DNA from: Streptomyces changanensis
GTDB lineage: Bacteria; Actinomycetota; Actinomycetes; Streptomycetales; Streptomycetaceae
Assembly: GCF_024600715.1 (NCBI RefSeq)
Contig: NZ_CP102332.1
Location: 4,650,001 to 4,714,000, forward strand
Direction of reading: 5' to 3'
DNA: 64,000 nt
Position 1 is the stretch's first letter, and every line of letters begins with the position of its first letter. Of the stretch, positions 60,501 to 64,000 are shown piece after piece. Below the pieces are notes generated by a model that did no database searches, was not told the DNA's origin, and was given only the letters and a program-made list of their open reading frames with translations. The position numbers and the translations under genes are program-made.

Positions 60501-61430
60501 TCATCTCCCCGCCCCGGTCGCCTCCCCGGCCCAGATCTGCCACGGCCGGCGGGCCACCCAGTCCTCGACCGGTCCCGGACGCACCCCCAGCAGCCGGGCC
60601 GCGGCGCCGGCGTCACCCGCCATCAGATCGGGGTCGGCCCCTGACGCCATGTGGTGGTACAGCCCGGCGACGCCCGCCGCCGCCCCGGCGCCCAGCACCC
60701 CGGCGAGGCGCTCCTCGAAGACCGCCGGGTCCAGGGGCACGTACCGCACCGAGCGCCCCAGGCCGCGGGCGAAGGCCGCCGCCAGGTCGTCACCCGTCAG
60801 GGTCAGCGCGCCGCCGACGTCGAGGACGCGCCCCTCGACGCCGTCCGCGGTGAGCGCCGCGCACACCGCCTCCGCCAGGTCCTCGTGGGAGAGCCACGCC
60901 GTCGGGGTGTGCGCGGGCAGCGGGTAGGCGAGGACGCCGTCGTCGACCAGGGCCGGGCCGTTCCAGGGGCTGAAGAGGTTGTCGAGGTAGACCGGCGGGC
61001 GCACCACCACCAGCGGCACCCCGCTCCCGCGCAGCGCCTCCTCGGCGGCCCGCCGCGTCTCGAACGCCGCCGTCCGGGTGGGCCGGGCCGGGACGCGGGT
61101 GTTGGCGTTGTAGACGATCCGGCGCACCCCGGCCGCGCGGGCGGCCGCGGCGACGTTCCGCGCGTACCGGGCGACGCGCTCCGCGTCGTACACGAGCGGC
61201 ATCGTCACGGCGGCGTGCGTCGCGCCCTCGAAGAGCGCCCGGACGTCCTCCGCCCGGCCCAGGTCGCCCGAGGCGCAGGCGACCCCCGGCAGCGGTGGCC
61301 GGTCCCCCTCGGGGCGGCGCGACAGGGTCCGTACGCGGTGGCCGCGCGCGGCCAGGAGGCGGGCCACCGCGCCGCCCTGGAATCCGGTCGCCCCCACCAC
61401 GGCGACGCGCATCGGAATGTGATCGGACAT
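60501..61430 (-). CDS. NmrA-like NAD(P)-binding oxidoreductase
   Basis: 309 aa from ATG 61430 (61412 and 61478 are alternatives). Rossmann motif GATGFQGGAVARLL, atypical short-chain dehydrogenase: no YxxxK catalytic pair in the usual place, VVRPPVYLDNLF conserved. NmrA-like proteins sense redox state or reduce small substrates. Divergent from the AraC regulator, which probably controls it. Confidence 0.85.
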   Translation of the reverse strand: MSDHIPMRVAVVGATGFQGGAVARLLAARGHRVRTLSRRPEGDRPPLPGVACASGDLGRAEDVRALFEGATHAAVTMPLVYDAERVARYARNVAAAARAAGVRRIVYNANTRVPARPTRTAAFETRRAAEEALRGSGVPLVVVRPPVYLDNLFSPWNGPALVDDGVLAYPLPAHTPTAWLSHEDLAEAVCAALTADGVEGRVLDVGGALTLTGDDLAAAFARGLGRSVRYVPLDPAVFEERLAGVLGAGAAAGVAGLYHHMASGADPDLMAGDAGAAARLLGVRPGPVEDWVARRPWQIWAGEATGAGR

Positions 61431-61547
61431 ATGGCTGAAGGGCCCTTCGATAGGGTGTCTCTGCTGACTGGACGGCACCTTTCAGGCTGGCGGCGGCGGC
61501 TTTGGCCGATCAATTAACAAACCGGGGCGGGGGTTGAAGGATCGTCC

Positions 61548-62501
61548 ATGGACACGACCGAGAACGACGGCGACGACCTCCTGAGCGAACTGCTGAAACC
61601 ACTGCGGCTCACCGGCGTGTTCGACAGCCGCTGGCACGTGCGGGCGCCCTGGGCCATCGAGGGCGACGCCGAGCGCAGCTGCGCGGTCCTGCACTACGTC
61701 GTCGAGGGCGACTGCTGGATCAGCGGGACCGACCACCCCCCGCAGCGGCTGGTCACCGGCGACCTCGCCCTCTTCCCGACCGGCGCGGCCCACCGCCTCT
61801 CCGATCGGCCCGACCGGCAGTGCGTGCCCCTGCGGACGGTCCTGCCCGAGCGCCAGCCCGGCACCTCCGGCGCGATCAGCTTCGGCGGCGAGGGTCCCGA
61901 GACCCGGCTGCTGTGCGCCGGGTTGCACTACGACTCCAGCGCCGCGTCCGGCCTGTACCGCGCGCTGCCCTGGGCACTCGTCCTCGACACCACCCAGGTG
62001 GACCGGGAGCCCCTGCTGCGCGACACGCTGCGGCTGCTCGCCTCACCCGACCGGCCCACCGGTCCCGGCGACCGGCTCATCACCCTGCGCGCCTTCGAGA
62101 TGGCGCTCGTCCTGGCGCTCCGGCCCCTGCTGCGCGACCTCACCGAGAAGCCGGGCGTCCTGCCCGTCCTGCACCACCCGGGCATCAGCCGCGCCATGGT
62201 CATGATCGCCACCCGGTTCGCCGAACCCTGGACGATCGAGTCCCTCGCCCGCGAGGTCGGCATGTCCCGCTCGGCCTTCACCGCCGCCTTCCGCGAGCTC
62301 GTCGGCGAGGCGCCCGCCCGCCACCTGACGGGGCGGCGGATGCAGGAGGCGGCCCGGCTGCTGTGCGAGACCTCGCTGCCGCAGTCGGCCGTGCCGCAGC
62401 GGGTGGGGTACCAGAGCGCGGTCGGCTTCCACCTGGCGTTCCGCAAGTGGTTCGGCAAGACCCCGGGGGAGTACCGGTCGCACGCGGCGAACGTCGCGTG
62501 A
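61548..62501 (+). CDS. AraC-family transcriptional regulator
   Basis: 317 aa from ATG 61548 (gaagga seven bases upstream). N-terminal cupin_6-type sensing domain (HYVVEGDCWISG, TGDLALFPTGAAHRL) and C-terminal double HTH (WTIESLAREVGMSRSAFTAAFRELVGEAPARHLTGRRMQEAARLL, then VGYQSAVGFHLAFRKWFGKTPGEYR). This type often controls a divergent oxidoreductase gene. The intergenic 61431-61547 contains CAATTAACAAACC, an AT-rich spot. Confidence 0.9.
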   Translation: MDTTENDGDDLLSELLKPLRLTGVFDSRWHVRAPWAIEGDAERSCAVLHYVVEGDCWISGTDHPPQRLVTGDLALFPTGAAHRLSDRPDRQCVPLRTVLPERQPGTSGAISFGGEGPETRLLCAGLHYDSSAASGLYRALPWALVLDTTQVDREPLLRDTLRLLASPDRPTGPGDRLITLRAFEMALVLALRPLLRDLTEKPGVLPVLHHPGISRAMVMIATRFAEPWTIESLAREVGMSRSAFTAAFRELVGEAPARHLTGRRMQEAARLLCETSLPQSAVPQRVGYQSAVGFHLAFRKWFGKTPGEYRSHAANVA

Positions 62502-62698
62502 CCCGGCCCCGGCCCGGCCCGGGCGGTCGCGTGACGCCGCCCCGGCCGGGCGCGCCGCTCCCCGCGTACGGGAACATTCCGGTCGCAACGGTACGCGAAG
62601 GCTGGCCGGTTCTTAAGGACCGCTGGACGGTCGTTCATTGCCGCAGGTGGCCGGGGGCGGACAGGCTCTGCAGGGCGCAGCCGTTCCGCGGAGGAGAC

Positions 62699-62863
62699 AT
62701 GGTGACCAGGTCGGGTCAGGATTACTCGCAGTCGCGACGCGACGGCCGCGTGACGGGGCCCGACGGCATGCCCGGCGCGGCGGCCACTGCCGGTACCTCC
62801 CCGCGCTCCGCCCCGCGTGCCGCGGCGGCCTCGCCGCTCCCGCCGGCCCGCCGGGAGCGGTGA
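62699..62863 (+). CDS. Putative small protein (54 aa), low confidence
   Basis: ATG 62699 or GTG 62702; ggaggag lies right upstream, five bases before the GTG. Short, basic, Ser/Arg/Ala rich (SGQDYSQSRRDGR). One base separates its stop from the next possible start. No homologue recognised; it may be a leader peptide or not coding. Confidence 0.35.
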   Translation: MVTRSGQDYSQSRRDGRVTGPDGMPGAAATAGTSPRSAPRAAAASPLPPARRER

Positions 62864-62864
62864 C

Positions 62865-63266
62865 GTGCCTGCGGCGGGTACGGCGCGGGCACCGCACGCC
62901 TGCGCCCCGCCGCCCCTGACCGCGGCCCCGGCGGCCACCGGCGCCGCGCCCCCACCCCCCGGCGACGGCCCCCCGCGCACGAGCGGGGACCACCCCGCCG
63001 ACGCGGCGGCCACCACCCGCACCACCCCCGGGGCCCCGGCCGCCCCCGCGGCTCCCGCCGCCCCCGCCGTCCCCGCGGCCTTCGCCGCCGCTCGCGTCCG
63101 TACCCCCGGACGGGCGGCGCCGCCCGCGCGGACCCCCTGCTCGCGTACGGCCCCGCCGTCCGGCGCCGTCCTCGCGGCGGCCGCCCCGCGCCCCGTGCGA
63201 CCGCGCCCGCCCGCCCCCGTACCGGCGGCCACCCCGCGCCAGGGCCGGGTGAGCGCCCCGCGGTGA
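62865..63266 (+). CDS. Putative Pro/Ala-rich protein (133 aa), low confidence
   Basis: GTG 62865 with gggag nearby. Composition is almost only Ala, Pro, Arg and Thr, with three Cys. Low complexity in this GC content can arise by chance in any frame. Its place between a regulator and the PrnB-like gene, in the same direction, is the only argument for it. Bases 62502-62698 show nothing else. Confidence 0.25.
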   Translation: MPAAGTARAPHACAPPPLTAAPAATGAAPPPPGDGPPRTSGDHPADAAATTRTTPGAPAAPAAPAAPAVPAAFAAARVRTPGRAAPPARTPCSRTAPPSGAVLAAAAPRPVRPRPPAPVPAATPRQGRVSAPR

Positions 63267-63384: not shown

Positions 63385-64000
63385 TTGAGCCTGTACGACG
63401 TCGTCGAGCCAGGACTCGTCACCTGCGCCGAACCGCGCTACCGCATCGCCGAGATACGCGCCGCCGACCCGCTCGGCGCCGACGCGGTCCTCGCCGCCGT
63501 CCCCGGCATCAACCGGGACGCGGACACCGCCGCCCTCACCGTCGCCCTGCGCGCCCTCGTCCCCGACCTCGACCGGGTCGCCGGGTGGAGCGTCGTGGAG
63601 GCCCTGGCCGGAATGCGGGACCTGGGGGTGCTCCTCGGCTCCCTCAAACGCCACGGCACCGAACCCGTCGCCGCGGTGCCGGAGGTCCTGCCCGTCCTGG
63701 AGGAGCTGGGCCGCCGCACCGACATGGTGCCGCGCGACACGGTCCACCACTACACGACCTGGAACCCGCTCGGCCGGCGCCGCCGCAGCTACACCGGATC
63801 GGAGACGGAGGCCCACCTCCAGGACGCCGTCCGGATGGTCTTCCCGGGCCTCGTCGCCGCCCTCGGCACCTGCGGGGAGCTGGCCCGCCTCGAACCGTAC
63901 GACCCGGGCTTCGCCTGCGCACTGGACCGCACCGCACAGCACGTCCAGTCCATGGTCGACTCGATCGACTTCACCGTCGCCCACGTCGCGCCCGAGTTCT
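63385..64000 (+). CDS. PrnB-family enzyme (pyrrolnitrin-type ring rearrangement), 3' end missing
   Basis: The frame is open from a TTG at 63385 (gagggg seven bases upstream) to the window end, 205 codons. Motifs match PrnB (monodechloroaminopyrrolnitrin synthase, IDO/TDO-like heme fold): AVPGINRDADT, VAGWSVVEALAGMRDLGVLLGSLKRHG, LEELGRRTDMVPRDT, TTWNPLGRRRRSYTG, EAHLQDAVRM, and QSMVDSIDF. In pyrrolnitrin synthesis PrnB rearranges the indole ring of 7-chlorotryptophan. Heme-binding C-terminus is outside the window. Identification is by recalled sequence; the TTG start is unusual. Confidence 0.75.
   Translation, partial: MSLYDVVEPGLVTCAEPRYRIAEIRAADPLGADAVLAAVPGINRDADTAALTVALRALVPDLDRVAGWSVVEALAGMRDLGVLLGSLKRHGTEPVAAVPEVLPVLEELGRRTDMVPRDTVHHYTTWNPLGRRRRSYTGSETEAHLQDAVRMVFPGLVAALGTCGELARLEPYDPGFACALDRTAQHVQSMVDSIDFTVAHVAPEF

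Follow-up and report, generated by a model that had tools for sequence, protein, structure and literature searches.

A PrnB-like gene lies across the edge of the stretch of DNA analysed here, 64,000 nucleotides of the 6.9 Mb genome of Streptomyces changanensis (contig positions 4650001-4714000; hereafter the window). An earlier note on this sequence saw in the gene the possible beginning of an uncharacterised tryptophan-derived pathway, perhaps without chlorination. This raises three questions: what the enzyme is, whether it belongs to a pyrrolnitrin cluster, and which genes accompany it. The features of the locus are as follows.

60501..61478, minus strand: NmrA-like NAD(P)-binding protein, divergent from the AraC gene; conserved cluster member
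61548..62501, plus strand: AraC-family regulator (Cupin_6 + HTH_18); conserved cluster member
62602..62698, plus strand: putative promoter/leader block of the ancestral operon, conserved; 94/97 identical to Streptomyces sp. DH12 (L156), no gaps
62699..62767, plus strand: hpaB-like relic, first ~23 codons, MVTRSGQDYSQSRRDGR..; tblastn E 2.9e-6; common to DH12
63049..63266, plus strand: MFS relic, last ~70 codons, frame broken, ending ..AATPRQGRVSAPR and a stop; blastn against L050
63267..63384, plus strand: prnB 5' flank with GAGAGGGG ribosome-binding site; aligns with the MFS-prnB spacer of relatives
63385..64000, plus strand: 5' part of the prnB-like gene (full gene 373 aa), PrnB-type His-ligated heme enzyme
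Window-equivalent 64521-66296 (L006:2522-4297): FMO, a 591-aa FAD monooxygenase, 14 bp past the prnB stop

The PrnB-like protein and its family

The open reading frame that starts with TTG at 63385, as the earlier note had proposed, is intact and ends at window-equivalent 64506 (L006:1386-2507, its end being L006:2507). All six motif blocks named in that note (GINRD, GWSVVEA, MRDLG, GSLKRHG, SYTG, EAHL) are in its translation. The 373-aa protein matches the Pfam family PF08933 (PrnB) with an E-value of 5.6e-37 and is significantly similar, over its full length, to characterised PrnB. Its sequence matches in the PDB are 2v7i (PfPrnB of P. fluorescens, monodechloroaminopyrrolnitrin synthase; E 8.3e-66, residues 22-364) and 9dfg (FbPrnB of a Flavobacteriales bacterium; E 5.1e-51), and we consider this similarity to be far beyond chance. 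When the three proteins are aligned, our residue equals that of PfPrnB at 132 of 338 positions (39%) and that of FbPrnB at 108 of 338 (32%). The name "monodechloroaminopyrrolnitrin synthase PrnB family protein" occurs at NCBI among the 120 matches listed of 340. We regard the TTG start as credible, and as a conserved trait that is not peculiar to this strain, because 14 of the 17 genes picked from its clade (the glg-locus clade described below, own gene counted) use TTG, mostly preceded by a GAGAGGGG-like site. The remaining three are called at ATG, in L039 at the identical position; the calls in L171 and L063 probably give another start than the true one.

An AlphaFold model of the protein (pLDDT 88.9) has the PrnB/IDO fold. 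Its top 12 structural matches in the PDB are PrnB chains, complexes with tryptophan included, with TM scores of 0.86-0.88 normalised by the model and 0.93-0.95 by the chain, hence 0.86-0.95 overall (0.86-0.94 for the 2v7i family). The earlier note had suggested this comparison, together with a check of the heme-ligand histidine, which it called distal. The histidine is conserved, since H320 aligns with H313 of PfPrnB; we take H313 to be the proximal heme ligand, and presumably the residue to be checked in PrnB is the proximal and not the distal one. Residues F316, R317, H320, and G338 are invariant across 38 aligned sequences. In the pocket, Y123 corresponds to Y104 of FbPrnB and S339 to its S319, on the assumption of a 20-residue tag offset in the FbPrnB PDB chain; these are the pocket tyrosine and carboxylate-binding serine described for FbPrnB (PMC11791213), an enzyme that binds both tryptophan and 7-chlorotryptophan (PMC11791213). 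The serine of the substrate-carboxylate loop is common to PfPrnB as well. There are also differences from PfPrnB: its V117 is replaced by Y123, and the pocket segment that separates pyrrolnitrin PrnB from our group reads G223-A224-V225-E226 (GAVE) in PfPrnB but A228-A229-A230-Q231 (AAAQ) here. Gly210-Gly211 of FbPrnB (same assumed offset) is Ala-Ala in our protein and Ala-Val in PfPrnB.

We compared 148 loci, of which 68 came from genome draws (own locus included) and 80 from named records (the best 80 of 141); the two sets overlap in strains and were counted apart. In overlapping genome draws, PF08933 matched 49 of 392 genomes at the level of the genus, 9 of 394 at that of the class, and 19 of 200 at that of the family. 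Among the 68 genome-draw loci, 65 hold a PrnB-type gene (in L116 just a fragment where the contig ends), L038 and L100 are of the SO4414/DUF1864 type, and L117 gave no PrnB-type gene. The SO4414/DUF1864 heme proteins (1zee/2nwb) share the Pfam family and the fold class with our protein, but its identity to them in the structural alignment is 15%. L038 scores 319 bits on the Pfam model, versus 88-128 for four actinobacterial PrnB-type proteins, pyrrolnitrin PrnB not being scored.

The two highest PF08933 scores, 319 and 316 bits, belong to L038:8964-10196 and L100:9468-10718, against about 78-148 for full-length actinobacterial PrnB-type proteins. We rejected both as true PrnB, L038 being of the SO4414/DUF1864 type and L100 joining it in the tree. 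The Pfam name "PrnB" is over-annotating and misleads the annotation of such proteins.

In a maximum-likelihood tree of 55 rows, rooted on the very distant DUF1864 proteins, the pyrrolnitrin rows form one clade (support 100/99) that lacks our gene and joins six Bacteroidota rows (100/98). Our gene falls inside a clade of loci placed near glg genes (100/100), which groups with a second, KS-type clade (91/92) and three other rows (98/94) within a larger actinobacterial clade (97/96). The link of the KS-type clade to L176, L178, and L198 has support 83/53. The branches of FbPrnB and type E are long and the root is distant, so the placement of both is unsure; FbPrnB is a distant relative of our protein. 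The tree places the protein in the PrnB family, in an actinobacterial clade that lies beside the pyrrolnitrin clade and outside it.

The 80 named loci comprise 21 prn clusters (20 from Proteobacteria and one from a myxobacterium) and 59 loci of Bacteroidota or actinobacteria, so the earlier picture of PrnB as known from proteobacterial pyrrolnitrin clusters was too narrow. PrnA, PrnC, and PrnD, searched in called genes with phmmer at E<=1e-10, are all present in the 21 named prn loci, our control (Pseudomonas, Serratia, Burkholderia, Trinickia, Citreicoccus). In the other 127 loci we found no PrnC or PrnD, and a PrnA-like piece in one (L057). At our locus, the called genes hold no relative of the three as far as ~18 kb beyond the window edge (window-equivalent ~82 kb), which rejects a pyrrolnitrin cluster with its halogenases in the next 15 kb. 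The earlier note had seen no halogenase on the near side and had proposed reading those 15 kb for halogenases and tailoring genes; the reading yielded a PhzS-like FMO. Compared with PfPrnB, our gene differs in clade, in its surroundings devoid of prnA, prnC, and prnD, and in having an FMO next downstream.

Several other PrnB-like loci differ in their surroundings. In L057 (5775-10351, genus Streptomyces), a PrnB-like gene 46% identical to ours is split over two frames, near an aminotransferase-like gene and the PrnA-like piece, which is 56% identical over 168 residues; this may be a chlorinating PrnA/PrnB locus in decay. Another PrnB-like clade of the genus, more distant from ours (L083-L086, L072, L079, L081, L082; 29-34% identical to the query proteins) has, by eye, neighbours such as a GHMP-type kinase, a SAM methyltransferase, a PLP decarboxylase, and mostly a glycosyltransferase, and its clusters are without FMO and without prn-type halogenase. 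In Microtetraspora sp. NBRC 13810 (L173:7144-14021), an adenylation enzyme, a possible carrier protein (by eye), and a PhyH-type dioxygenase precede prnB, FMO, and KS in a single row, which puts the PrnB-type gene next to a peptide-synthetase-like loading unit. A further PrnB-like group (L103, L105, L113, L114, L115, and L198), from other genera of the family and from Saccharopolyspora, is without an FMO, and a methyltransferase-like gene (by eye) lies convergently after the prnB-like gene; in L110 and L112, which belong to this group too, the gene calls do not show that neighbour.

The cluster between glgE and glgP and the gap upstream of prnB

Flanks of the compared loci reach at most ~10 kb, and some stop at contig ends. 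Within these limits, 39 of the 68 genome-draw loci have glgE or glgP within 9 kb of the PrnB-type gene and show a conserved order between the two: NmrA on the opposite strand, then AraC, HpaB, MFS, prnB, FMO, and glgP in the same direction. NmrA, AraC, and HpaB are each present in 36 of these 39 loci, MFS in 35, FMO in 38, glgE in 35, and glgP in 38; the named set has 34 loci of this type, with HpaB in 31, MFS in 30, and FMO in 33. The HpaB of intact relatives has both HpaB domains (PF11794+PF03241), and its top three solved relatives are 4-hydroxyphenylacetate 3-monooxygenases (6b1b, E 2e-74). Since 39 of 68 loci lie near glgE/glgP and the 13 tree rows of this type form one clade, a recent acquisition at a random site can be ruled out. 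The other genome-draw loci include six of the KS type and three with the FMO in other surroundings (L064, L078, L080), while 18 of 68, the DUF1864-type L100 among them, have no such FMO nearby. It is missing near 17 of the 65 PrnB-type loci, as it is near L176, L178, and L198 of the larger actinobacterial clade. Hence, not every actinobacterial PrnB-type gene has the FMO as a fixed partner.

The AraC regulator and the NmrA-like oxidoreductase reported upstream in the earlier note are members of this cluster. Beyond NmrA lie glgE, treS, pep2, and glgB (named by eye), and after the FMO comes glgP (DUF3417 + phosphorylase; glycogen phosphorylase), a housekeeping gene. The closest solved relative of the FMO is 2rgj (E 2e-81); the PDB titles 2rgj and 3c96 flavin-containing monooxygenase, and we take both to be PhzS, 5-methylphenazine-1-carboxylate monooxygenase. 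PhzS is an enzyme of the phenazine pathway; our FMO differs from it in being paired with a PrnB-type gene and in carrying an N-terminal low-complexity extension. The earlier note had left room for an unrelated family or for housekeeping genes next in line. The protein belongs to the PrnB family, although outside the pyrrolnitrin clade, and the next gene is the FMO, the housekeeping glgP following it.

The N-terminal extension of the FMO is rich in Pro, Thr, and Ala and spans ~140 aa (window-equivalent 64521-64950). If truncated versions such as that of L041 (176 aa) are set aside, called FMO lengths in glg-locus relatives lie between about 427 and 591 aa.

In S. changanensis the gap between AraC and prnB is 883 bp and holds the relics of the hpaB start and of the MFS 3' end. 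The MFS relic with the prnB flank is identical to L050 at 243 of 348 positions (blastn). The hpaB gene is reduced here to a 23-codon relic, the rest of it and most of the MFS gene having been deleted. The short gap is common to Streptomyces sp. DH12 (L156), the closest named relative in the tree, whose PrnB-like protein is 97% identical to ours (898 versus 884 for our locus by the same measure). In TRM49041 (L166), the next relative, the stretch is complete at 3.2 kb and includes HpaB and MFS. With these relics upstream, prnB cannot open a new cluster at the window edge. The pathway genes start upstream, with NmrA/AraC (60.5-62.5 kb) and the relics (62.6-63.3 kb), and end at the FMO, so this part of the earlier claim does not stand. 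Our locus is what remains of a conserved cluster, widespread in Streptomyces and partly deleted here.

Between our locus and DH12, the ungapped block before the lost hpaB start (listed above) is followed by the hpaB relic, identical at 66/69 positions without gaps. Between the two relics, 178/215 positions are identical and there are 186 gap columns; the corresponding values are 193/218 and 3 for the MFS relic, and 92/108 and 10 for the prnB 5' flank. The block before hpaB is present in all 14 relatives searched, over 41-109 bases. We read the locus as a shortened prnB-FMO operon that would still be driven from the old promoter. One or both of HpaB and MFS have been lost in other patterns in L068/L187, L069, L192, L200, and L101, the last retaining prnB alone of the cluster set; the loci were retrieved via prnB, so such counts of prnB kept and others lost are biased towards prnB.

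The prnB gene and the FMO are under purifying selection after the loss of HpaB and MFS. In pairwise NG86 estimates for a single strain pair (S. changanensis and DH12), dN/dS is 0.116 for prnB and 0.092 for the FMO core, as compared with 0.032 for AraC, 0.080 for glgP, 0.126 for glgE, 0.203 for treS, and 0.285 for NmrA. It rises to 0.336 for the whole FMO when its low-complexity part is counted.

The sister cluster and tryptophan supply

The KS-type clade corresponds to a sister cluster, laid out as AraC, FMO', HpaB, MFS, NmrA, KS, prnB, FMO, DsbA, (BBE), and trpC, with BBE often present. It was found in 6 genome-draw and 10 named loci and spans three actinobacterial families. Its hosts are Plantactinospora, Kitasatospora, Actinokineospora, a Pseudonocardiales MAG, and Streptomyces, the latter including S. 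parvulus, S. harbinensis, and S. coelicoflavus.

Eight of the 10 named loci and four of the six genome-draw loci contain trpC; in those without it (L109/L159, L116, L175), the contig ends 0.4-4.0 kb from prnB. The trpC gene is an additional copy in genomes G200, G345, G098, and G277, which have 2, 2, 2, and 3 IGPS genes, respectively. G000, G042, G210, and G855 have a single IGPS gene (G855 is of the KS type and its contig ends inside the cluster), and G005, which lacks a PF08933 match, has two IGPS matches, one of them weak (119 bits).

Genes adjacent to trpC were scored in the sister loci whose contig extends far enough. They have Pfam domains that fit an anthranilate phosphoribosyltransferase, a MocR-type regulator, a glutamine amidotransferase, and a chorismate-binding enzyme, so that trpD/G/E-like genes flank the sister-cluster trpC. 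The Actinokineospora locus (L163) also encodes a PALP enzyme (trpB-like) and a tryptophan synthase alpha (trpA-like). That the trpD near the KS-type cluster is an ordinary housekeeping gene is doubtful, since trpG/trpE-like genes, and in L163 trpB/trpA-like genes, adjoin it.

Given the extra trpC and the trpD/E/G- or trpBA-like genes, tryptophan is likely the precursor of the sister pathway and, by homology, would likely be that of ours too. Tryptophan-supply genes are absent from our own locus, and the S. changanensis genome has one trpC.

Proposed function and alternative explanations

With moderate confidence, we propose that the gene encodes a PrnB-type, His-ligated heme enzyme that would act on L-tryptophan and not on 7-chlorotryptophan, and whose product, tailored by the FMO, would be 3-(2-aminophenyl)pyrrole or an oxidised analogue close to it. 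The substrate, the reaction, the order of steps, the regulation, and the product suggested for the S. changanensis enzyme are derived from PrnB and from the relatives of the cluster. By analogy with PrnB, which binds tryptophan with the amine on the heme iron (PMC11791213), the tryptophan amine would coordinate the iron held by H320, the carboxylate would be held by S339, and O2 at the ferrous heme would oxidise the indole. Ring opening, recyclisation, and decarboxylation would then give 3-(2-aminophenyl)pyrrole or the oxidised analogue, which the PhzS-like FMO next door would hydroxylate. In intact relatives, the HpaB-type flavin hydroxylase encoded ahead of MFS and prnB may add another hydroxyl, the MFS pump may export the compound, and AraC may control the cluster. 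In S. changanensis, HpaB and MFS have been lost and the shorter prnB-FMO operon is kept under selection. From the gliding bacterium Rapidithrix thailandica, the unchlorinated 3-(2'-aminophenyl)pyrrole has been isolated as a natural product (PMC2630848). The chemistry of PrnB cannot be transferred with certainty, because its activity has been seen only in fresh crude extract and none with the purified enzyme (PMC11791213).

The strongest alternative is simple monooxygenation of tryptophan, which we consider less likely: a monooxygenase of another kind would hydroxylate the indole or form a cyclic hydroxypyrroloindoline, to which FMO and HpaB would add hydroxyls, and no aminophenylpyrrole would arise. 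Tryptophan monooxygenation is known from His-ligated heme relatives, IDO being able to yield a cyclic product and MarE a 2-oxindole (PMC12921851, PMC11904535), a PrnB homologue of a Paenibacillus lipopeptide cluster was predicted, untried, to hydroxylate tryptophan (PMC13036774), and the flavin hydroxylases of our cluster would suit a phenolic indole. However, the tryptophan hydroxylase BifE was described in a new subfamily of tryptophan 2,3-dioxygenases (PMC13285481), another paper (PMC12921851) does not class heme tryptophan hydroxylases in the aromatic oxygenase family, and the PrnB homologue PdnC did not form a clade with the hydroxylase Luz15 (PMC13036774). Among the PDB sequences searched, the closest characterised proteins are PrnB proper, and in a separate alignment-based search no Actinomadura luzonensis protein (Luz15-type) is among the 120 matches listed of 380.

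It seems improbable that the protein is an IDO/TDO-like enzyme making N-formylkynurenine for catabolism or for an anthranilate-type product. The superfamily fold is the same, and IDO1 chains reach query-normalised TM scores of 0.57-0.69 among the matches listed, but identity in the structural alignment is 13-17% to IDO versus 32-37% to PrnB, no IDO/TDO sequence matches at E<=0.001, and the tryptophan-making genes of the sister cluster are ill-suited to tryptophan catabolism. Slow decay of prnB and FMO as a dead remnant after the loss of HpaB and MFS would fit that deletion, the losses in the other loci named above, the low-complexity N-terminus of the FMO, and the dN/dS of 0.336 obtained when it is counted. 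We find it very unlikely, since prnB and the FMO core evolve in the deletion-sharing pair like glgE, and 186 gap columns have accumulated between the relics against none in the promoter block. Last, a true pyrrolnitrin prnB with halogenases and a Rieske oxygenase elsewhere in the genome is largely refuted and hardly credible: although the actinomycete Actinosporangium vitaminophilum is listed as a pyrrolnitrin producer (PMC6769897) and L057 has its PrnA-like piece, our gene lies in a separate clade, no PrnC/PrnD relative was found near any of the 127 non-prn loci, and the tryptophan-halogenase model PF04820 reaches at best 50.8 bits in the S. changanensis genome, over part of the model, in a search that also gave matches in 5 of the 14 control genomes, E. 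coli among them.

Returning to the PrnB-type enzyme acting on tryptophan, the pathway appears uncharacterised although the gene family is known to databases: no member of the actinobacterial clade has a known product in the sources searched, and no description of the cluster was found by title or abstract opening in the literature searched, whose coverage of subscription journals is small. The earlier suggestion of an uncharacterised tryptophan-derived pathway lacking chlorination is probable. More tentatively, we suggest an old chlorine-free branch of PrnB in actinobacteria, in which a PrnB-type enzyme and a PhzS-like FMO would turn tryptophan into undescribed oxidised phenylpyrrole-type compounds. 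It would come in at least three layouts (the glg-locus type, the KS/trp type, and an FMO-methyltransferase type), and the prnB-FMO core may be self-sufficient, selection having retained the pair once the second enzyme and the exporter were gone.

PrnB is an unusual heme enzyme: purified protein has yet to reproduce its reaction, and it is suspected that some component of the cell is missing (PMC11791213). The many PrnB relatives with fixed neighbours (FMO, HpaB, NmrA, tryptophan-biosynthesis genes) offer orthologues, as well as candidate partners and downstream steps. Databases carry over the name "monodechloroaminopyrrolnitrin synthase" to these proteins, though no chlorination genes were found beside the prnB-type genes. 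These results suggest that Streptomyces make a class of tryptophan-derived compounds which this naming has caused to be overlooked.
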